This document shows positions 11,196-59,733 of a stretch of DNA of 64,000 bases, in pieces (position 1 is the stretch's first letter; every line of letters begins with the position of its first letter). The position numbers and the translations under genes are program-made. The DNA is from Chthoniobacterales bacterium. GTDB taxonomy: Bacteria > Verrucomicrobiota > Verrucomicrobiia > Chthoniobacterales > UBA10450. The notes under the pieces were generated by a model. It made no database searches, had not been told where the DNA came from, and worked only from the letters and a program-made list of their open reading frames with translations. The DNA lies in the NCBI GenBank assembly GCA_025929155.1, contig JAICMR010000001.1, positions 31,799 through 95,798 of the forward strand, given 5' to 3'.

Positions 11196-11813
11196 ATGAC
11201 TCGGACTTTTCTTCTCTCGCCCGCCTATGCTGGCGGCCGCCGCGCGCAGATGCTCCTGAGCGAACGGGCGCAGTTCGCGCTCGCGCGACGGTTGCGCATG
11301 GGTGAAGCGGTGTCGTTAGGCGAAGTCTTCACCTTTCTCAGCGGTCTCTATTTTCGAGGGAAACTGGCCTACGCGAATACCTTCGCTAGCGACTTTGAGC
11401 GGGTGCTCGTGATCACGCCGACGCGCGGCCTCGTGCCGGCAGCGACCGGCGTCACGCTCGCGGACCTGCGGGAATTTGCCGAGGTCGATATTGCGCAAGA
11501 CGAGCCGCGTTATCGGCAACCGCTCGAGCGCGACCTGCGCCGGCTCGTTCGGCAACTTTCGCCGGCCTGCGACGTTGTGCTGCTCGGAAGCATCGCGACG
11601 GGCAAGTATGTCCGTGTGATGCTCGAGATTTTGCAGGATCGGCTGCGGTTTCCAGCGGATTTCGTCGGGCGTGGCGACATGAGCCGTGGCGGGTTGCTCC
11701 TGCGCTGCGCGGTGGATCGCGTCGAACTCAGTTACATCCCAGTGGCCGGCGCGACACGAAAAGGGAAGCGACCCCCAAAGCTGGCGCCGCGTCGCTACCC
11801 GCGGTCGTCCTGA
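11196..11813 (+). CDS. Hypothetical protein upstream of ATP-dependent ligase
   Basis: 205-aa ORF MTRTFLLSPAYAGGRRAQMLLSERAQFALARRLR; stop TGA supplied by palindromic element at 11804. Confidence 0.7.
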   Translation: MTRTFLLSPAYAGGRRAQMLLSERAQFALARRLRMGEAVSLGEVFTFLSGLYFRGKLAYANTFASDFERVLVITPTRGLVPAATGVTLADLREFAEVDIAQDEPRYRQPLERDLRRLVRQLSPACDVVLLGSIATGKYVRVMLEILQDRLRFPADFVGRGDMSRGGLLLRCAVDRVELSYIPVAGATRKGKRPPKLAPRRYPRSS

Positions 11814-11921
11814 GCGAAGTCGAAAGATCCCGGGAAAAAACCATGAAGCGCAAACTGCAAAACTCGCTTTCCAGAAACTCCGCGGGATCTTTCGACTCCG
11901 CCTCGCTGTGCTCAAGATGAC
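11804..11921. repeat. Palindromic element, family A (GTCATCCTGAGCG..AAGGATC type)
   Basis: Left arm gtcgtcctgagcgaagtcgaaagatcccg; right arm cgcgggatctttcgactccgcctcgctgtgctcaagatgac. Confidence 0.85.
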
Positions 11922-17993: not shown

Positions 17994-20900
17994 TCAGGAT
18001 GACCGGGGGCGAGATGGCGCTTTACGGAGGGCTGGCGCGGTTCCCGTTTTGGTCTTCAAAGCAACCTCCCGCCCCTGCGCAAGCACTTTACGCAGAAACG
18101 GCGCCGTCCGGCTCACCCGATTCTTCGCGACTTCTTCGGGCGTACCTGCAACCACGATTTCTCCGCCTAACGAACCCGCCTCCGGACCGATATCGATCAC
18201 GTAATCGGCTTCGGCGATCACGCTCAGGTTGTGCTCGATCACGATCACAGTGTTTCCATCGTCCACGAGCCGATGAAGGACATTTAAGAGCAACTTCACG
18301 TCGGCCATGTGCAAACCGATCGTCGGTTCTTCCAGAAGATAGAGCGTCGACTTCGGCGTCCGCATTTTGCGCATCCGTTCGTTCGTCGCGCGACTGACTC
18401 CGCGCGTTAATTTGGTTGCAAGCTTCAGCCGTTGCGCTTCGCCGCCGCTCAAGGTCGGGCTCGGCTGCCCAAGTTTCAGGTAGCCCAAGCCCGTATCCAC
18501 GAGCAGGCCGAGCGGACGCGCGATCTTCTGGTTCGCGGCGAAGAATTCCGCGGCCTGCGCGATCGTCATTTCCATCACGTCACCGATGCTTTTGTCGTGG
18601 TAGAGCACTTCAAGCGTCTGCGCGTTGTAGCGTTTCCCGCTGCAATCTTCGCATTCAACGTAGCTGCTCGGGAGGAAGCTCATTTCGAGCTTAAGCTCGC
18701 CCTGGCCGCTGCACGTTTCGCAACGGCCGCCTTCGGTGTTGAAGGAAAATCGACTCGCGCTGTACCCGCGTACGCGAGCAACCGGTAACTGCGCGAAGAG
18801 ATTTCGGATTTCGTCCAAGACCTTGATGTAAGTCGCCGGAGTCGAGCGTGACGTTTTTCCGATCGGTGATTGATCGACTTCGTAGATCGCTTCCAGAAAT
18901 TCCGCGCCAGCGATGGTCGTCTGGTCAGGGCGCCCGTTTCGGGTGCTGGTTGACGTGTCCCGGGGCAACGAACTTTTGCTGCTGGTGGAAGTTTGAGAAG
19001 GCGAGACGCCACCGCCAGCACGCGAGAGGCGCCCCCTACCCAGCGCTTCCTTCACCGACGGAAGGAGAACCGACCGCATGAGCGTTGACTTTCCGGAACC
19101 GGAAATTCCCGTGATGACCGAGAGCCGGCTGATCGGAAACTTCACGTCCACGTGCTTCAGGTTGTTGACCTGCGCGTCTCCAATTTCGAGCCAATGCTCG
19201 ACTTCGCCTAACGACCTCCGCGATTTCCGCACCGGGTGACAAAGTGGGTCGCGCAGGCAGCGCCCGGTCTGTGATGCACTGATTTCCTGGATGTCGCGGA
19301 GCGTTCCCTCCGCCACGACTTCGCCACCGTGCACACCCGCGCCCGGCCCCAGATCGATGATGTGATCGGCGCGTCGCATCGTCTCCTCGTCGTGCTCGAC
19401 GATCACGAGCGAGTTTCCTTTTTCGCGCAGCGCGGTCAGCGTTTCGAGGAGCCGGACGTTGTCGCGCGCGTGCAGGCCGATGGTCGGCTCGTCGAGGACG
19501 TAAAGCACGCCGCGCAGGTTCGAGCCGAGCTGCGCCGCCAGCCGAATGCGTTGCGATTCGCCGCCACTCAAGGTCTTCGCGGAACGCCCGAGCGCGAGGT
19601 AACCGAGCCCAACGTTTTCCATGAAACGGAGCCGCTGCTCGATCTCCGGAACGAGATCGGCCGCGATGATTTTTTGCGTGCCGCGAAAGCGCAGCCGGGC
19701 GATCAGCGCGAGCGCTTCAGCTGCCGAACGGGCCGAGAAATCGTCGATCGTTTTTCCCTGGAGCCGCACGTGGCGCGCAATCGCGTTCAGGCGTGAGCCG
19801 TGGCAATCGGGACAGGGAACGGCTTCGCCGTCGTCAATGGCTTCAAACTGACGTTCCGCGCTCAGCTCGTTCTCGAGCGCGGAATCGCCCGTCTCCTCTT
19901 CGCTGCCCTGCAGTTTTTCGTTCCAGATTTCGCCGAAACCTTTGCAAGTCTCGCACCAGCCATGCGGGGAATTAAACGAAAACAAACGCGGGTCGAGCTC
20001 CTCGAAAGCGCGCCCGCAACCGGGGCAGCTCATCTCGGTGCTCATCGTCGTCAGTCGATTTTGTGCATCGAGCAGGTGAGCGGTGCCACGCCCAATCTGG
20101 AGCGCGCGCTGGATCAGGTTGCGGGCCTTCAGAATTCGCTTGGCATCGATCGCTCCGACAACCGCGTCGATCGTGTGTTCTTTGAAACGCTCGAGCTTGG
20201 TGAACTGTTTAATCCCGACGAGGCGGCGATCGACGTAGAGGGTGTCGAACCCCTGCCGCTCCGCCCAGCGCGCAACTTCCGTATGAAAGCCTTTGCGGGC
20301 TTTCACGAGCGGCGCCAGGACCTTGAGCGGGCCCCGCCGCGCCGCGGTTTCCAATTGCCTAACGATTGCGCCGAGCGTCTGCTTTTCCACCGGCAGATCG
20401 CAGTCCGGGCAAAATTGGGTCCCCGTTTTAGCGAAGAGGAGCCGGAGGAAATGGTAAACCTCCGTCACAGTTGCGACCGTAGATTTGCCGCCACCGCGCG
20501 TGACGCGCTGCTCGATCGCGACGCTCGGCGGCAGACCTTCGATCAGATCGACATCAGGCTTCTCGAGTTGCTCGACGAACTGCCGCGCGTACGGCGACAT
20601 GCTGTCGAGAAAACGGCGCTGTCCTTCTGCAAAGAGGAGATCGAACGCAACGGTCGATTTGCCGGAACCGCTCAGGCCGGTGATCACGACCAGCTCGTCG
20701 CGCGGGATCATCAGGCTGATGTTCTTGAGATTGTGTTCGCGCGCGCCGTGGATCGCGATCTCACGAGCGCGTCGCGTCGCGAGAGATCTGGGGTGCGCAC
20801 ACGCCCGTGCACCGTCCGGGGCCTCGCCCAGCGGTTCTTCGGCCGCGCGCAAGAACGATTCGTGATCGTTAGGCAAGTCGTAGTACACACTGGTTTTCGG

Positions 20901-23900
20901 CGAGGGGCCGAAACCAGCACGTGAGGCGCGTGCGCTCCCCAGACGAAGAAGCTCGCACAAATAGCGACCTGTGTGCGAACCCTCGACTTCCGCGACCGCT
21001 TCCGGCGTTCCGGCCGCGACCAGTTTCCCCCCTTCTTCGCCGCCTTCCGGCCCGAGATCGATAATCCAGTCGGCGCATTTCATCACTTCCAGATTGTGCT
21101 CGATCACGACGATGGAGTTCCCCGCCTCGACCAGCCGCTGAAACAGCCTGACGAGCAGAGCGACATCGTCGAAATGCAGTCCGGTCGTCGGCTCGTCGAA
21201 GATGAAGAGATCGCCGCGCCGGGTGGAATCAGCCCCGGATTCGCTCAAATGCCGGACGAGCTTGAGGCGCTGCGATTCTCCGCCGGAAAGCGTATTCAAC
21301 GGCTGCCCGAGCCGCACGTAACCGAGCCCGACCTCCTCGAGGATCGAGAGTGGCTGCGCGAGCTTCTCTGTTTCGCCTAGCAACCCGAAGAATTCCACCG
21401 CCTCGCTCACCGTCAGCTCGAGCAGGTCGTGGATCGACCGGCCTTCGAGTTTCACCCGCAGGACGTGCGGCTGGAAACGTTTCCCCTCGCACTCCGCGCA
21501 GCGCACGTAGAGATCGCTCAGGAATTGCATCTCGACTTTCTCAAAGCCGGTCCCACCGCACCGCTCGCAACGACCGCTCCCGGAGTTGAAGGAAAATGCG
21601 CTCGCAGTCAGGCCCTGCGCCATCGCTTCCGGCAAGGCGGCGAACAGCTCGCGCACTCGATCGTAAACACCGAGGTAAAGAATCGGCGTCGAACGCGGTG
21701 TGCGGGAGAGCGGCGCCTGATCGACCATCACGATCTGACCCACGCGATGCGCGCCGGTCACGCTTTTGCAGGCACCGGCTTCTTCGCCCTGTTCGCCGCG
21801 CGCGCGCAGAAGGCCTTTGTAAAAAACATCGTGGATCAGCGTGGATTTTCCCGATCCGGACACACCGGTCACGCAGGTGAAAACGCCTAACGGAATCTCG
21901 ACATCGAGGTTCTGGAGGTTGTGTTCGCTCGCGCCTTTGATCCGGATCGCGCGTTCCGATTTCCGGCGCGAAGTTGGAATCGGGATGCTTTTGCGTTCGG
22001 TCAGGTAGGCAGCTGTCAACGATCCTGTCCGGGTAGCGCCCGCGTCTCCCGTGCTGGTCGCCGCATCCTGCCGCGACGAACTTTCATCGAGCGATCTCGC
22101 GTCAAAAACTGTGCGCTCTTCTGGCAAACTTCGTGCCGCTGAGACACCGTCGCCAGCACCCGAGACGGGTGCGCTCTCCAGCATCTGCGCGAGCGTCCCT
22201 TGAAAAACCAGCTCGCCGCCATTTTCGCCACGGCCGGGGCCAATATCGAGCAGGTGATCCGCCGCCCGGATGATCGCTTCCTCGTGCTCGACCACCAGCA
22301 GCGTGTTGCCTTTGTCCCGGAGGTTATGCATCACCCTAACGAGTCGTCCGACATCCCGCGGATGGAGCCCAACACTCGGTTCGTCCATGACAAAAAGCGT
22401 GTTCACGAGCGAGGCGCCGAGGCAGGTAGTGAGGTTGACGCGCTGGACTTCGCCGCCGCTCAGCGTCCTTGTAGAGCGATCGAGCGTGAGATAGCCGACG
22501 CCGACTTCGCAGAGATAACTGAGCCGGGTCACGATCTCGGCCCGCAACATGGATGCCGCAGAATCGTTAGGCGGAAGCTCGAGCCTGGTGAGAAAATCGC
22601 GCGCTTCCGAGACCGGGAGTGCGGCCAGTTCGGGCAGCGTAAACGCAATTCCATCCTGCCTGACCAAACGGAAATTCAGCGCCTCCGGTTGAAACCGTGC
22701 GCCCCGGCAGCTCGGGCAGGTCGTGTAGGCGCGGTAGCGGCTGAGGAGCACTCGCACGTGCATTTTGTAGCTCTTGCTCTCGAGCCATTTGAAAAAGCCG
22801 CGCACGCCATACCAGCGATCGCTTTCGTAATCTTCCTCGCTGTATTCACCCGCGCCCTTTTCGCCGTTGATGATGAAATCCTGATCGCATTGCGGCAATT
22901 CCTCGAACGGAGCGTGGACATCGATCTCGGCGCGGGCACAGGCCCGGAGCAGGTCCTTTTGCGACTCGCCCATCTCCTGTCCGCGAAAAACCCGCACCGC
23001 GCCCTGCGCGATCGAAAAGGAGCGATCGGGAATCGCGCGGTGGTAATCGACACCGATGGTGCGCCCAAAGCCGCGGCATTCCGGGCACGCGCCTAACGGA
23101 TTGTTGAAGCTGAAAAGGCCCGGAGTCGGCGGCCGGATATCGAGATCGCAGTGCGCGCAATGCCAGCCCGTTGAAAACGGGTGCGTCTCCTTGGTTTCGA
23201 GATCGACGAAGTTAATTCGGTCTTTCCCGAAGCGGAGCGCGGTTTCGAGCGACTCGACGAGCCGTGCGCGCGCGTCTTCGCTGATCGTCAGGCGATCCTG
23301 GATGACTTGGACCCGCGCACCGAGCCGGACGTTTTTGGCTTCGGTATCCGCGCGGACAATTTCGCCGTCGAGCCAGATGCGCAGGTAACCCTGCTGCTGG
23401 AGGAAGGCGAAGAAATCGCGCGCTTCCGTCTTCGGCGGGACGGCGATCCAAAATGTGATCAGACCGGCCTTGGGAGAAGCGCGGTTTTCCCCGTCATCCT
23501 GAGCGGAGCGCAGCGCAGTCGAATGATCCCGCGGAGCTTCCGAGAAGCTTCTGCGCGCGGGCTTCACGGCAGCTCCACCGGATCCTTCGAATCCATTCCG
23601 CTGCGCCCCACTCCGCTCGGAACAACCGTTGTCGCCCGGCCCGAACGTCGCGAGAATCTCATCCGCGATCGATTTGGCTGTTTCCGGCCGAATCTCGCGA
23701 GCGCAGCTGGGGCAAAAGGCCCTTCCCACGCGCGGCATGAGCAGCTTCAGGTAGTCGTTGATCTCGGTCATCGTCCCGACGGTCGAGCGCGAGCTTTTTA
23801 CCGGATTCGATTGCTCGATCGCGATTGCCGGTGGGATGCCGCGAATCTCGTCCACGCGCGGTTTATCCATCCGGTCGAGAAACTGCCGTGTGTAAGGCGA

Positions 23901-24128
23901 GAAGGTCTCGACGTAGCGGCGCTGCCCTTCGGCGTAGATCGTGTCGAAAGCGAGGGACGATTTGCCGCTCCCGCTCGGGCCCGTCACAACGGTCATTTCG
24001 CCCAGCGGGAGATCGAGATCGAATCCCTTGAGATTGTTCTGGCGAGCCCCGCGGATCTCGATGCAGCCGCGGTCAGCGGGCGCCGTGACGCAGGGTTCTT
24101 TGCCGTTGGTGGAAGCCACCGACGACAA
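17994..24128 (-). CDS. uvrA: Excinuclease ABC subunit A, tandem double-length fusion (2044 aa)
   Basis: Two complete UvrA-like halves: GPSGSGKSSLAFDTIYAEGQRRY ... LSGGEVQRVNL ... VSGSGKSTL ... then again LSGSGKSTVAFDLLFAEGQRRF ... LSGGESQRIRLA ... ISGSGKSTLM ... LSGGEAQRLKLA. Probable TTG start. Contains repeat-encoded insertions. Confidence 0.96.
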   Translation of the reverse strand: MSSVASTNGKEPCVTAPADRGCIEIRGARQNNLKGFDLDLPLGEMTVVTGPSGSGKSSLAFDTIYAEGQRRYVETFSPYTRQFLDRMDKPRVDEIRGIPPAIAIEQSNPVKSSRSTVGTMTEINDYLKLLMPRVGRAFCPSCAREIRPETAKSIADEILATFGPGDNGCSERSGAQRNGFEGSGGAAVKPARRSFSEAPRDHSTALRSAQDDGENRASPKAGLITFWIAVPPKTEARDFFAFLQQQGYLRIWLDGEIVRADTEAKNVRLGARVQVIQDRLTISEDARARLVESLETALRFGKDRINFVDLETKETHPFSTGWHCAHCDLDIRPPTPGLFSFNNPLGACPECRGFGRTIGVDYHRAIPDRSFSIAQGAVRVFRGQEMGESQKDLLRACARAEIDVHAPFEELPQCDQDFIINGEKGAGEYSEEDYESDRWYGVRGFFKWLESKSYKMHVRVLLSRYRAYTTCPSCRGARFQPEALNFRLVRQDGIAFTLPELAALPVSEARDFLTRLELPPNDSAASMLRAEIVTRLSYLCEVGVGYLTLDRSTRTLSGGEVQRVNLTTCLGASLVNTLFVMDEPSVGLHPRDVGRLVRVMHNLRDKGNTLLVVEHEEAIIRAADHLLDIGPGRGENGGELVFQGTLAQMLESAPVSGAGDGVSAARSLPEERTVFDARSLDESSSRQDAATSTGDAGATRTGSLTAAYLTERKSIPIPTSRRKSERAIRIKGASEHNLQNLDVEIPLGVFTCVTGVSGSGKSTLIHDVFYKGLLRARGEQGEEAGACKSVTGAHRVGQIVMVDQAPLSRTPRSTPILYLGVYDRVRELFAALPEAMAQGLTASAFSFNSGSGRCERCGGTGFEKVEMQFLSDLYVRCAECEGKRFQPHVLRVKLEGRSIHDLLELTVSEAVEFFGLLGETEKLAQPLSILEEVGLGYVRLGQPLNTLSGGESQRLKLVRHLSESGADSTRRGDLFIFDEPTTGLHFDDVALLVRLFQRLVEAGNSIVVIEHNLEVMKCADWIIDLGPEGGEEGGKLVAAGTPEAVAEVEGSHTGRYLCELLRLGSARASRAGFGPSPKTSVYYDLPNDHESFLRAAEEPLGEAPDGARACAHPRSLATRRAREIAIHGAREHNLKNISLMIPRDELVVITGLSGSGKSTVAFDLLFAEGQRRFLDSMSPYARQFVEQLEKPDVDLIEGLPPSVAIEQRVTRGGGKSTVATVTEVYHFLRLLFAKTGTQFCPDCDLPVEKQTLGAIVRQLETAARRGPLKVLAPLVKARKGFHTEVARWAERQGFDTLYVDRRLVGIKQFTKLERFKEHTIDAVVGAIDAKRILKARNLIQRALQIGRGTAHLLDAQNRLTTMSTEMSCPGCGRAFEELDPRLFSFNSPHGWCETCKGFGEIWNEKLQGSEEETGDSALENELSAERQFEAIDDGEAVPCPDCHGSRLNAIARHVRLQGKTIDDFSARSAAEALALIARLRFRGTQKIIAADLVPEIEQRLRFMENVGLGYLALGRSAKTLSGGESQRIRLAAQLGSNLRGVLYVLDEPTIGLHARDNVRLLETLTALREKGNSLVIVEHDEETMRRADHIIDLGPGAGVHGGEVVAEGTLRDIQEISASQTGRCLRDPLCHPVRKSRRSLGEVEHWLEIGDAQVNNLKHVDVKFPISRLSVITGISGSGKSTLMRSVLLPSVKEALGRGRLSRAGGGVSPSQTSTSSKSSLPRDTSTSTRNGRPDQTTIAGAEFLEAIYEVDQSPIGKTSRSTPATYIKVLDEIRNLFAQLPVARVRGYSASRFSFNTEGGRCETCSGQGELKLEMSFLPSSYVECEDCSGKRYNAQTLEVLYHDKSIGDVMEMTIAQAAEFFAANQKIARPLGLLVDTGLGYLKLGQPSPTLSGGEAQRLKLATKLTRGVSRATNERMRKMRTPKSTLYLLEEPTIGLHMADVKLLLNVLHRLVDDGNTVIVIEHNLSVIAEADYVIDIGPEAGSLGGEIVVAGTPEEVAKNRVSRTAPFLRKVLAQGREVALKTKTGTAPALRKAPSRPRSS
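18927..19040. repeat. Palindromic element, family B (GGTAGCGC..CTCGCGTGCTGG type), inside uvrA
   Basis: gggcgcccgtttcgggtgctgg ... ccagcacgcgagaggcgccccctaccc. Confidence 0.8.
20891..20943. repeat. Partial family B element inside uvrA (inter-half linker)
   Basis: ctggttttcggcgaggggccgaaaccagcacgtgaggcgcgtgcgctccccag. Confidence 0.7.
22029..22179. repeat. Palindromic element, family B, inside uvrA
   Basis: ccgggtagcgcccgcgtctcccgtgctgg ... ccagcacccgagacgggtgcgctctcc. Confidence 0.85.
23493..23622. repeat. Palindromic element, family A, inside uvrA
   Basis: gtcatcctgagcggagcgcagcgcagtcgaatgatcccg ... ggatccttcgaatccattccgctgcgccccactccgctcgg. Confidence 0.8.
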
Positions 24129-24184
24129 TCGTTTTGAGGCGCAGAAAGCGCAAACTTCGCGCTAGCCGGTGCGGCGAAAAAATG

Positions 24185-34413: not shown

Positions 34414-34552
34414 GTCATCTCGACCGGAGCGCAGCGAAGCCGAAGGATCTCGGCGGTTTCTTGGAAGGCGTCGCGCATTTTGTTCACTTCGATTGGGGCT
34501 TCATGCAGCTCCACGTGATCCCTCGACTCCGCTGCGCTTCGCCCGAGATGAC
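34414..34552. repeat. Palindromic element, family A, between ftsA and ftsZ
   Basis: gtcatctcgaccggagcgcagcgaagccgaaggatc ... gatccctcgactccgctgcgcttcgcccgagatgac. Confidence 0.88.
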
Positions 34553-47524: not shown

Positions 47525-47534
47525 CAGTGGCGAC

Positions 47535-47684
47535 AGCTCTGGGTAGCGCGCACGTCTCGCGTGCTGGTTTCGGCGTCCTCGCCGGAACAATTCTTCGTTC
47601 CACGGCAAGCGTTGAGGCAGAAGCAAGTTCGCGATGACGAGGACTCCATCGCCAGCACGCGAGACGCGCGCGCTGCCCAGAGCT
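47535..47684. repeat. Palindromic element, family B, between murE and murF
   Basis: 33-bp terminal inverted repeat with 2 mismatches: agctctgggtagcgcgcacgtctcgcgtgctgg ... ccagcacgcgagacgcgcgcgctgcccagagct. Confidence 0.9.
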
Positions 47685-47716
47685 GGCCTGCTTCAGTTAT
47701 CGTTAGGCGGAGCATT

Positions 47717-49267
47717 TTAAAATTCGAGCGGACGGTTTTCCAACGCACGCTTTGCCACCTGCAGGTCGTCGAAGGGAATGGTGTGATCGGCAAACTCCTG
47801 GTAGGTCTCGTGGCCTTTACCAGCGATGAGCACGATGTCGCGCGGCTGAGCGAGTGCGATCGCGCGGGCGATCGCTTCCGCCCGGTCCGGCACGGCTTCA
47901 TAGCGATCGGAAAGAAAACCTTTCTTGATGCTTTCTATGATTGCGAGCGGATCTTCTTTGCGAGGATTATCGGAAGTGATGATGCTGAAATCGGCATTCT
48001 GATCCGCCACCCGTCCCATCAGCGGGCGCTTGGCCTGGTCGCGATCGCCGCCCGCGCCGAAGACGCAGATCAATCGGCGCGGGGAAAGCTCGCGCAGAGT
48101 TTTCAGGACGTTGAGGAGCGCGTCGTCGGTGTGCGCGTAGTCGACAAAGGTCTGGAATTGCCGCTTCGCCGGGACGGCTTCGAGGCGGCCGGGAACCTGC
48201 GGCGCTTTACCGAGGCTAAGGACGGCGTCGCGCAGGCTGACGCCTAACGACGTCGCGGCGGCGAGGGCGGCGAGGGAGTTGGAAACATTAAAGCGCCCAA
48301 TGAGCGGCACCCGCACAAGATAGCTCCGCCCGCGCGCATCGAGTTGAAAGGAAGTGCCGCTGAATTCCGCCCGGTAATTCGAGGCACGAAAGTCGGCTCG
48401 CTGGCTCAGTCCGTAGGTGATGACGCTTATGCCCTCATCTCGAGAGCCAAGAGAGCCGGGGTTGGCTTTAGGGTTTCCCGACTGGATCCCTCGGCTGCGT
48501 TCGGGATGACCGAGCCGGGTCACCAGTTGCTCGCCGTAGCGATCGTCGATGTTGATGACGCAGGTCGCGTTCTTCTTATTGCCTTGATTCGTTAGGCCAG
48601 TGAAGAGCCGGGCTTTCGCATCGAAGTAGTCGGCCATCGTCCGATGAAAATCGAGATGATCCTGGGTGAGATTGGTAAAGATCGCCACGTCCCATTCGAT
48701 CCCGCGAATCCGTTCCTGCGCGATCGCGTGCGAGGAGACTTCCATGATCGCTGCTTTGCAGCCGGCGCCGACCATTTGCCCGAGCATCTCCTGGAGATCG
48801 GCTGATTCCGGCGTGGTGCGAGTCGCTGGCAAAACGCGCTCACCGATCTGGTAGCGGACGGTGCCGATCAGACCGCTCCGCAAGCCGGCGCTTTCGCAGA
48901 TGTGCTTGAGGAGAAAAGTCGTGGTGGTCTTGCCATTCGTCCCTGTGACCCCGGCCATCTTCAGACGCAGCGCGGGCTTTTTGTAAAAGGTGAAGGCCAG
49001 GTCGGCGAGCGCATGACGGGCGTCATCGACCACGAGGGTCGTGGCGCGGGCGTGGGTTTCCGCGCGTTCCACCACGACCGCCGTCGCGCCTCGCTCGATG
49101 GCCTGATTAACGAACTCGTGGCCATCAACCTTCGTTCCCGGCACCGCGACGTAGAGACCATTCTTCTGCACCCGGCGCGAGTCGTAATAAATGCCTTCGA
49201 CCTCGCGATCGAGCGGACCATTTACTTCTCTGGTTGGGATGGCCGCGGCCAGGGTTTTGAGCTGCAT
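47717..49267 (-). CDS. murE: UDP-MurNAc-tripeptide synthetase MurE
   Basis: GVTGTNGKTTTTFLLKHI, SDNPRKEDP, GKGHETYQEF; carries repeat-encoded insert LGHPERSRGIQSGNPKANPGSLGSRDEG. Confidence 0.95.
   Translation of the reverse strand: MQLKTLAAAIPTREVNGPLDREVEGIYYDSRRVQKNGLYVAVPGTKVDGHEFVNQAIERGATAVVVERAETHARATTLVVDDARHALADLAFTFYKKPALRLKMAGVTGTNGKTTTTFLLKHICESAGLRSGLIGTVRYQIGERVLPATRTTPESADLQEMLGQMVGAGCKAAIMEVSSHAIAQERIRGIEWDVAIFTNLTQDHLDFHRTMADYFDAKARLFTGLTNQGNKKNATCVINIDDRYGEQLVTRLGHPERSRGIQSGNPKANPGSLGSRDEGISVITYGLSQRADFRASNYRAEFSGTSFQLDARGRSYLVRVPLIGRFNVSNSLAALAAATSLGVSLRDAVLSLGKAPQVPGRLEAVPAKRQFQTFVDYAHTDDALLNVLKTLRELSPRRLICVFGAGGDRDQAKRPLMGRVADQNADFSIITSDNPRKEDPLAIIESIKKGFLSDRYEAVPDRAEAIARAIALAQPRDIVLIAGKGHETYQEFADHTIPFDDLQVAKRALENRPLEF
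48430..48515. repeat. Palindromic element, family A, inside murE
   Basis: ccctcatctcgagagcc ... ggatccctcggctgcgttcgggatgac; encodes GHPERSRGIQ on the coding strand. Confidence 0.75.
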
Positions 49268-49298
49268 GAGGTATGGACACGCGCGCCGCGGTGGTGGT

Positions 49299-51059
49299 TC
49301 AGCGATGGGCATCGGTTAAGGGCGACTCGGCCGCCGCGACCTGCGGTCCAACGTCCTCATGCGGCTCAAGGTCGAGATAGCGGGCCGCCTTCGCGGCGAC
49401 ACGCGAGAAAATGGGTCCGGCCACTCTACCGCCGTAATTTTCCTCGGCGGTTTTGGTGTGCGCGTCGTCGAGCACGACGAGGCCGACGAAAGCCGGATTA
49501 TCCGCCGGGAGCGCGCCGATGAAGGAGACGATTTCCTTTCCTTTTTCGTAACCGCCTTTCGGATCGACTTTTTGCGCGGTGCCGGTTTTTCCCCAGAGGT
49601 CATAGCCGGGAACAGCGGCTTCCGCTGCCGTGCCCCGTTTGGTTACAACACCGCGGAGCGCGAGCGCGACCTCCGCGGCCGCTTCCGGGCTGATGACCTG
49701 CCGGACGGTGGTCGGCCGGAGTTCGCTGATGGCTTTGCCGTTTTCATCCACAATCGATTTCACGATTCGCGGCTCGACCATTTTCCCGCCGTTCGCGATC
49801 GTCGCCATTGCGACCATCATCTGCAACGGAGTGACGCCCACTTCGTGACCCATCGGCATGCGGGTGATGGAAATTTTGCTCCAGGCGCGCGGTGGATGAA
49901 TCAGTCCCGGAATTTCGCCCGGCAACTCGATGCCGGTCCTTTGCCCGAAACCGAAGTGCAGGATGTAGTCGTAAAACTTCTGATCGCCGAGCATGAGCGC
50001 GATCTTGGCCGCGCCGATGTTGCTCGATTTCACGAGGACATCGCGAACAGGAATCTCCCCGTAATATTTGTGATCGTGCAGATAGCGGCCGCCGTAACGC
50101 CAGGGGCCGTTCTCGCAAAAGATGGGCGTCTGGAGCGTCACTTTCTTCTCATTCAAGGCCGCGCCGACGGTCACGATTTTGAAGGTCGAGCCCGGCTCCA
50201 TCAGGTCGAGGATCGCGCGGTTGATCATCTGGTCGGGCTTGGCAGTCGAACGTTGGTTGATGTCGAAATTCGGCCGGTTCGCCATCGCCAGAATCTCGCC
50301 GGTCTGCGGCTTCATCAGGATAATCGTGGCCTTTTGCGGTGCGTATTCCTTCACCGCGGCGTCGAGCTCGTTCTCGACAATGTTCTGCAGGTTCATGTCG
50401 ATGGTGAGGTGAACGCTGTAGCCGTTGCGGGCCGGGCGTTCCGTCACGCCGAGGGCCGAGACCTCGCGGCCGCGCCGATCTTTTTCAAACTCGCGAAAGC
50501 CGTTCTCGCCGCGCAGATATTGATCCATTGATTTCTCGACACCCTGGATGCCGAGGTGGTTGAAATCGGAAAACCCGATGACGTGGCAGAGCATCGAATC
50601 GTTCGGGTAACGCCGCACGAAATCGCGATCGAAGCCGATCCCGGGCAGATGCTTCTTGCGCAGCTCGTCGCCTAACGAAACCGCAACGGCTTCCGGCACC
50701 CGCCGTTTCAGCACCACATACATGCCATCGCGCGCGAGCTTTTGCGCGATCTCATCGGCCGGTAATTCCAAAGCCCGGGCGAGAATCGGCGTCATTTCTT
50801 CAGGCGCTTTGATGACGCTCGGATCGGCGAAGACGGTTTCGACCGGAACGTTCATGGCGAGAATCTCGTCGTGCCGATCGTAAATCGTGCCGCGCTCGGC
50901 GAAAATTGTGGAACGCTCGCTGTGTTTGCTTTCGGCCTGCGCGGCGTAATAGCTGTGCCGCACCATCTGCAGCCAGACGAGACGAAACGAAAACACGCTG
51001 AAGAGCAGGGCAAAGCCGAAGCCGACGAGCGCGCAACGTGTTCGCCCGTTCCACTTCAT
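49299..51059 (-). CDS. ftsI: Peptidoglycan transpeptidase FtsI / PBP2-3 family
   Basis: RGTIYDRHDEILAMNVPVE, LMEPGSTFKIVTV, KSSNIGAAKIAL, WGKTGTAQK. Confidence 0.95.
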   Translation of the reverse strand: MKWNGRTRCALVGFGFALLFSVFSFRLVWLQMVRHSYYAAQAESKHSERSTIFAERGTIYDRHDEILAMNVPVETVFADPSVIKAPEEMTPILARALELPADEIAQKLARDGMYVVLKRRVPEAVAVSLGDELRKKHLPGIGFDRDFVRRYPNDSMLCHVIGFSDFNHLGIQGVEKSMDQYLRGENGFREFEKDRRGREVSALGVTERPARNGYSVHLTIDMNLQNIVENELDAAVKEYAPQKATIILMKPQTGEILAMANRPNFDINQRSTAKPDQMINRAILDLMEPGSTFKIVTVGAALNEKKVTLQTPIFCENGPWRYGGRYLHDHKYYGEIPVRDVLVKSSNIGAAKIALMLGDQKFYDYILHFGFGQRTGIELPGEIPGLIHPPRAWSKISITRMPMGHEVGVTPLQMMVAMATIANGGKMVEPRIVKSIVDENGKAISELRPTTVRQVISPEAAAEVALALRGVVTKRGTAAEAAVPGYDLWGKTGTAQKVDPKGGYEKGKEIVSFIGALPADNPAFVGLVVLDDAHTKTAEENYGGRVAGPIFSRVAAKAARYLDLEPHEDVGPQVAAAESPLTDAHR

Positions 51060-53529: not shown

Positions 53530-53640
53530 GTCATCCTGAGCGGAGCGCAGCGCATTCGAAGGATCCCGATGAGTTTCCTTAAACCTTTCCCACAGGGTTC
53601 ACGGCAGCGTTCGACTCCGCCGTGGGTCCGCTAAGGATGA
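53530..53640. repeat. Palindromic element, family A, intergenic
   Basis: gtcatcctgagcggagcgcagcgcattcgaaggatcccg ... gttcgactccgccgtgggtccgctaaggatgac; shares ttcacggcagc with the uvrA copy. Confidence 0.85.
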
Positions 53641-53726
53641 CGCGCGTGCTGTTGTAAGATGGTCGGCTTCGGAAGCTTCCGTCGATTACTTGCCAGCGGC
53701 AGGAAAGAGCCTTATCAGGTCACGGC

Positions 53727-54421: not shown

Positions 54422-54512
54422 GTCATCCCGAGCGAAGCGCAGCGCAGTCGAGGGATCCCGCGGAGCGGGCTATAAGATTTCGCCACGGGATCCATCCGTT
54501 TTGCTCGGGATC
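54422..54512. repeat. Palindromic element, family A, intergenic (exbB-exbD)
   Basis: gtcatcccgagcgaagcgcagcgcagtcgagggatcccg ... cgggatccatccgttttgctcgggatcac. Confidence 0.8.
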
Positions 54513-54571
54513 ACTGGCGGTTCGATCCCCCTTCTAGCAAGGCGGCGTTCGGAACCCGCGCCTAACGAGTC

Positions 54572-59031: not shown

Positions 59032-59733
59032 ATGGCGGGCGTAAAGGAACTCCAGGCAAAGCTGGATCGGCATGTGGCGCGGTTGCGCAACTGCCGACGC
59101 TGTCCTCTGATGCATCCGCCGCCAGTGTCAGGCGCCGCGGTCATGAGCCGGATTTTGCTCGTGGGCCAGGCGCCGGGGGTGCGCGAGCCCGCTGCGGGGA
59201 AACCCTTTGCCTGGACCGCCGGCCGAACGCTTTTCCGCTGGATCGAAGACGCCACAGGCCTAACGGAAAGTGAAGCGCGGGCGAAGATTTACTTCGCGGC
59301 CGTCTGTCGTTGTTTTCCCGGGAAAGCGCCTGGCGGCAGCGATCGCGTGCCCAATCCGCAGGAGATTGCGAATTGCTCGTCGTGGCTCAGCCGTGAGCTG
59401 GAAATTTTGCGGCCGCAACTGATCCTGCCGGTCGGCAAGCTCGCGATCGCGCAATTCATGGCGGTCGGGAAGCTGGAGGAAATTATCGGGCGCAATTTCC
59501 GGGTCACGCGCGACGGGCGGACTTTTGATCTCGTTCCCTTGCCACATCCTTCCGGGGCGTCACCCTGGCCGAGAATTTCTCCCGGGCGCGAACTCCTCCA
59601 GCGCGCGCTGCAACTGATCGCGGCGCACCCGGCTTTCCAAAGAGGCGTGTCACAAAACTTCCGTCATCCTACGCGAAGTGCAGTTCGCGGAGCGAACGAA
59701 ATGCAGTCGAAGGATCCCGTCGAGTATCCGTGA
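59032..59733 (+). CDS. Uracil-DNA glycosylase superfamily (type 4/5-like)
   Basis: RNCRRCPLMHPPP, ILLVGQAPGVREPAAGKPFAWTAGRTLFRWIE, PLPHPSGASPWPR; C-terminus reads into a repeat. Confidence 0.87.
   Translation: MAGVKELQAKLDRHVARLRNCRRCPLMHPPPVSGAAVMSRILLVGQAPGVREPAAGKPFAWTAGRTLFRWIEDATGLTESEARAKIYFAAVCRCFPGKAPGGSDRVPNPQEIANCSSWLSRELEILRPQLILPVGKLAIAQFMAVGKLEEIIGRNFRVTRDGRTFDLVPLPHPSGASPWPRISPGRELLQRALQLIAAHPAFQRGVSQNFRHPTRSAVRGANEMQSKDPVEYP
59663..59728. repeat. Family A-like repeat at 3' end of the UDG gene
   Basis: gtcatcctacgcgaagtgcagttcgcggagcgaacgaaatgcagtcgaaggatcccg. Confidence 0.7.

Follow-up and report, generated by a model that had tools for sequence, protein, structure and literature searches.

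The window, i.e. the whole stretch of DNA analyzed (64,000 nucleotides of a Chthoniobacterales bacterium; assembly GCA_025929155.1, contig JAICMR010000001.1), harbors on its minus strand the gene murE with a short repeat element of a family here called Family A and, at the junction of murE with murF, a pair of repeats of a second family, Family B:

47717..49312, minus strand: murE gene with insert, 531 aa, one open frame throughout (translation; Pfam domains Mur_ligase, Mur_ligase_M and Mur_ligase_C in the product)
48434..48510, minus strand: Family A element within murE, a REP-like dimer of inverted arms with a net gain of 72 nt or 24 codons (site empty in five relatives; arm and spacer matches to elements of relatives)
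48484..48510, minus strand: first arm of the murE element, GTCATCCCGAACGCAGCCGAGGGATCC (26/27 bases identical to the G010 element)
48434..48460, plus strand: second, decayed arm of the murE element, starting CTCATCTCGAG, tag CCTC (read directly; CCTC is a known tag variant of CGTC repeats)
47534..47685, no strand assigned: pair of inverted Family B copies where murE and murF meet (inverted repeat I4; match to transposon ends)

The translation of murE reads ...GEQLVTRL[GHPERSRGIQSGNPKANPGSLGSRDEG]ISVITYGLSQ... without interruption, the in-frame gain of 72 nt (24 residues) deriving from the 77-nt inverted-repeat element. It also contains TGTNGKTTTT, DAKARLF and SDNPRKEDP, which we take to be motifs with roles in Mur ligases, and murE has a single match in this assembly. 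Since the three motifs are kept and there is only this one match, the insert-bearing MurE is presumably functional; that the gene is essential would follow from the role of MurE and from the same single match. AlphaFold prediction of MurE alone gave a pLDDT of 31. The insert probably lies between a helix and a strand, in a surface turn of the Mur-ligase middle domain.

In the relatives the site is empty. DNA alignment revealed a clean gap of 72 nt opposite the insert in four congeners and in one genome of a sister genus, the borders of the insert being ambiguous at a divergence of 20%. The insert is absent from all 52 other genomes of the order with matches reaching the site, the four congeners included, as counted from the match table, in which either the two blocks adjoin or a spanning match falls short of the query by 24–28 residues. 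The alignments printed for three solved MurE or MurE-like proteins (8w9z, 2wtz and 8f5d) break at the insert site. A sequence-only reading of the window had placed an in-frame Family A element at 48430-48515 and had stated that MurE normally runs directly from one flanking block to the other; both points hold, the element lying at 48434-48510 in one open 531-aa frame and the blocks being directly joined in the 52 genomes and the three structure alignments. The counter-observation named in that reading, an equivalent insert in distant MurE proteins, was found neither in the 52 genomes nor in the three solved proteins. The insert is real, in frame and, among those sampled, species-specific. The genome is metagenome-assembled and consists of 241 contigs, and an assembly error or a local duplication therefore has to be considered; we regard it as very improbable, because the site is inside a contig of >95 kb, because the exact element has no second copy in the genome and because the frame is kept.

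Family A arms read [C/T]GTCATYCYGAGCG..RGRATC. The sequence-only reading had counted the murE insert as one member of this family, rightly so: the same inverted repeats, with arms near GTCATCCYGAGCGRAGCGCAGCGGAGTCGARGGATCCCG, are dispersed in the window. Over 27–45 nt the first arm of the murE element is 87–96% identical to arms in related genomes, the lowest BLAST E being 7e-9. The core of the arm, TCGRNGGATC, has 161 sites in this genome vs 6 for the reversed control pattern. Together these results place the element beyond chance. Compact relatives of the murE copy, e.g. one of 83 nt in G010, have the first arm and a spacer motif in common with it. As a compact form, the murE copy scored only weakly with the long-arm model in the profile search. 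Because its second arm is decayed, a 96-nt stretch of murE around the element folds no better than shuffles (z −0.26), and the inverted repeat noted in the earlier reading is confirmed, but becomes evident only by comparison with relatives.

The fold bears on the question whether the insert is removed again, from the mRNA by splicing or from the protein by translational bypass. Nothing direct speaks for removal, for which one could point to the RNA hairpin that an inverted repeat might form; with the frame open through the insert removal is unneeded, no Rfam match was found in the window, and the stretch does not fold better than its shuffles. We consider removal extremely improbable.

For most Family A copies an inverted partner is recognizable. 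The stem of the arm begins with A-T pairs and has 5 pairs with a loop of 11–12 nt. Among 60 arms from fetched loci the letter before GTC is C in 25, T in 22, G in 9 and A in 4; the murE element's own arms are tagged GGTC and CCTC. In arms listed across the phylum the stem variants switch together (ATTCC..GGAAT, ATCCC..GGGAT, ATCCT..AGGAT). At the outer variable stem position 58 of the 60 arms are paired vs 49.6 by shuffling (largest shuffle 55), at the next one 54 vs 51.2 (largest shuffle 53), and at the third an excess of pairing over shuffles is absent; part of the arm stem covaries. The folding energy of a lone arm is no better than that of shuffles.

These features bear on whether the element could be a classical MITE, with terminal inverted repeats and a DDE transposase as mover, rather than of REP type. 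Terminal inverted repeats of ~27–40 bp and a length of 55–210 bp would fit a MITE. However, a consistent target-site duplication was not seen by eye in the Family A flanks, the borders in murE being ambiguous, and every arm forms a small palindrome of its own that shows covariation, a feature not required of MITE ends; we regard a MITE as unlikely. With its tag, palindromic arm and inverted dimer, the element is built like a REP.

When stretches around matches in this genome were searched with a profile, ~46 distinct Family A copies of roughly 55–210 bp were obtained, most of them bounded by GTCATCC and GGATGAC; relatives contain further copies. Elsewhere in the window, apart from uvrA (see below), these are:

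34414..34552, no strand assigned: Family A copy outside genes (profile search)
53530..53641, no strand assigned: Family A copy outside genes (profile search)
54422..54520, no strand assigned: Family A copy outside genes (profile search)
11805..11921, no strand assigned: Family A copy immediately preceding a gene for a DNA ligase
59663..59718, no strand assigned: single Family A arm at the end of an ORF

A gene for an ATP-dependent DNA ligase with Family A just upstream is found not only at 11805-11921 of the window but also in a different genus (G013, L093:1438-1529). The exact short arm has a patchy distribution in the phylum: it is present in 10 of 289 genomes, with up to 158 sites in one (control pattern: none). 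A scan of genome contigs with the strict arm returned three Verrucomicrobia/Spartobacteria records, a scan of plasmids returned none, and a search of the literature for the letters of the motif gave only chance matches in unrelated papers.

Family A is mostly outside genes, although long stop-free frames cover ~94% of the window by a crude greedy choice of frames that is meant to give only the direction of the bias. Three of the ~46 copies, those in murE, uvrA and hsdM, clearly lie within a conserved gene whose product is matched on either side of the copy, and all three are in frame; several long ORFs over Family A, taken to be antisense frames or upstream extensions of genes, were not counted, and the methyltransferase of locus L075 may or may not be a further case. 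In another genus (G019) MetH has a Family A copy that separates its domains S-methyl_trans and Pterin_bind. At contig C138 of the own genome (L019:1511-3112) a Family A copy seems to join the end of a glycosyltransferase to the beginning of another ORF within a single open frame, possibly a gene fusion through the repeat.

At least two reading frames of the element are used among the host proteins, so selection does not act on the peptide as such. That the insert has been recruited as an extra MurE loop with a role, e.g. in regulation or partner binding, would agree with its being kept open in an essential gene. It is found, however, in one species only, and its residues are simply what a dispersed repeat encodes when translated, other proteins using other frames of this repeat. 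We judge recruitment to be quite improbable.

A second host protein in the window, UvrA, contains repeats of both families:

17994..24161, minus strand: UvrA ORF of double length, its frame from stop to stop reaching 24161, with one Family A and three Family B stretches (the latter by position and frame)
23493..23622, minus strand: Family A element in frame in UvrA (linker occupied in 6/12 species)
22028..22185, no strand assigned: two paired Family B copies within the UvrA frame (similar to the ends of transposons in relatives)
20896..20943, no strand assigned: Family B copy within the UvrA frame, read as GSARASRAGFG (E 7e-15 to the end of a nested transposon)
18993..19062, no strand assigned: further Family B copy within the UvrA frame

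Of the in-frame sites that of uvrA is the most informative. Among twelve species compared (L168-L179), six have a peptide of Family A, starting HPERS.. or VIPSE.. and running to RDPSTPLRSAQDD, in the linker before UvrA_inter; in the other six the linker is without the peptide, one of them having a possible remnant. Either one old insertion has often been lost or the linker is a hot spot. Family A, a dispersed family scarce in genes, has made an in-frame gain in murE and recurs in a few tolerant linkers.

Family B (GGTAGCGCGCACGTCTCGCGTGCTGG.., GTAG/GGAG type) led to the transposases. The GTAG REPs are thought to be moved by Y1 transposases (RAYTs), and the CGTC class is without a known enzyme (PMC3733652). 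The Family B copy at 20896-20943 matches the end of a unit nested in MetH of G034; Family B thus matches the ends of a RAYT unit and is the only one of the two families that goes with a RAYT as GTAG REPs do. Family A arms were found to flank none of 20 tested Y1 loci of relatives (two weak matches elsewhere), in agreement with what has been published on the CGTC class (PMC3733652). A RAYT as mover of Family A, whose arms were sought beside Y1 genes and found flanking none of these 20 loci, and Family A as a GTAG REP with RAYT, its tag being GTC and RAYT loci not being flanked, were both rejected.

The Y1 search showed that many Y1 transposases of the relatives are in unusually long frames. In ~20 genomes a Y1_Tnp domain is nested without stops in CarB, ValS, AlaS, MetH (in two linkers), RecG, ClpB or Sua5 (relatives: L192, L193, L194, L195, L196-L201 and L203-L214; own genome: L067:1483-3042, contig C194); the frames were read individually and eight were scanned with Pfam. 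Some of the units are on contigs of several hundred kb, and one MetH, that of G008, harbors two. Of 14 nested units tested for inverted repeats at both ends, nine gave E <1e-6, three were weaker and two had none. At two MetH sites the net gain relative to a congener without the unit is 567 and 561 nt, each divisible by three. Nearly all nested Y1 proteins have the HUH and Tyr motifs; the Tyr motif has been lost from the RecG copy of the own genome, which is located at the end of a contig. The CarB unit is found in ~16 genomes (continuity of the match). In the tree of nested Y1 proteins the CarB copies form one clade (100/98) and the MetH, AlaS and RecG copies are intermingled, which suggests that the CarB unit is one old inherited insertion and that the MetH/AlaS/RecG group is still moving between hosts. 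Among the matches listed from 145 genomes across the phylum only one Y1 was in a frame of >500 aa; the habit looks concentrated in this order.

Taking all together, we consider it probable that the murE insert is a recent, non-autonomous dimer of REP/REPIN type that survived because it is in frame and that was moved in trans by a single-strand transposase. The element would be a compact, partly decayed REP/REPIN-type copy with two CGTC-like arms in inverted order and a short spacer between them. A single-strand transposase of the Y1/HUH type, acting in trans, would have inserted it into murE after the species split from the sampled congeners. Every copy that breaks a needed gene would then be lost, and the frame-neutral copy in murE would survive owing to its position between helix and strand, a place that is probably on the surface of the middle domain. 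The 24 added residues would be translated without doing any particular work, the insert being tolerated selfish DNA, as has been proposed for the Rickettsia palindromic elements.

Judged from the related genomes, in-frame insertions, some with a whole transposase, are common among these Verrucomicrobiota. On balance we lean towards the wider view that in-frame residence in essential proteins is a regular habit of the REP class in this order, with old (CarB) and mobile (MetH, AlaS, RecG) nested Y1 units and with the murE insert as a short non-autonomous case. In-frame selfish palindromes, best known from intracellular Rickettsia, are now found in one soil lineage of Verrucomicrobiota with another repeat family, for which clean filled and empty sites in essential genes are provided. 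Transposases nested in essential proteins are a simple model of a mobile element that escapes selection by staying readable, and also of how new protein domains could arise.

How does Family A compare with the known repeats? In 2013 Di Nocera et al. described the CGTC-tagged REPs, families CGTC-1 to CGTC-4, which include RPE-4/6 of Rickettsia (PMC3733652). Their stem of 8–9 bp starts with A-T pairs, the loop has 4–5 nt, the tag, with the variants TGTC and CCTC, is unpaired at one end, inverted dimers predominate, and the five phyla listed do not include Verrucomicrobia (PMC3733652). Family A shares with them a GTC-type tag (C or T first in 47/60 arms), an AT-initial stem, inverted dimers, the lack of a linked transposase and in-frame copies inside genes, uvr genes included. 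It differs in having five stem pairs and a loop of 11–12 nt and in its host, which is outside the five phyla. Because the stem of 8–9 bp and the loop of 4–5 nt are not found in it, Family A is CGTC-like and not a member of CGTC-1 to CGTC-4.

Rickettsia palindromic elements are in-frame insertions that lengthen unrelated proteins by a few tens of residues (Ogata et al. 2000, 2002; reviewed in PMC10969869), and in Rickettsia almost half of them are in genes. Like these, Family A is a short palindromic repeat found in frame in unrelated genes (murE, uvrA, hsdM, metH); the host differs, the sequence presumably does so too, and few of the ~46 copies are in genes. GTAG REPs in frame in both uvrA genes of Opitutus terrae (PMC3733652) show that the in-gene habit was already known in the phylum Verrucomicrobia. 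They have the phylum and the in-frame position in uvrA in common with Family A, which has the tag GTC and is another family; Family B is the closer match to the GTAG class.

Like the RAYT, TnpA-REP and TIRYT transposases (PMC3733652, PMC6006769), the nested Y1 proteins possess the HUH and Tyr motifs, and most of them come with inverted repeats at their termini; unlike them, they reside in frame inside CarB, MetH, AlaS, ValS, RecG, ClpB and Sua5. A description of Y1 transposases nested in frame in such proteins was not found in open-access text, and a survey of 2018 left out proteins that were longer than expected, taking them for fusions or errors of annotation (PMC6006769). The murE insert alone is a variant on the known theme of in-frame palindromes; the nested transposases are less expected.
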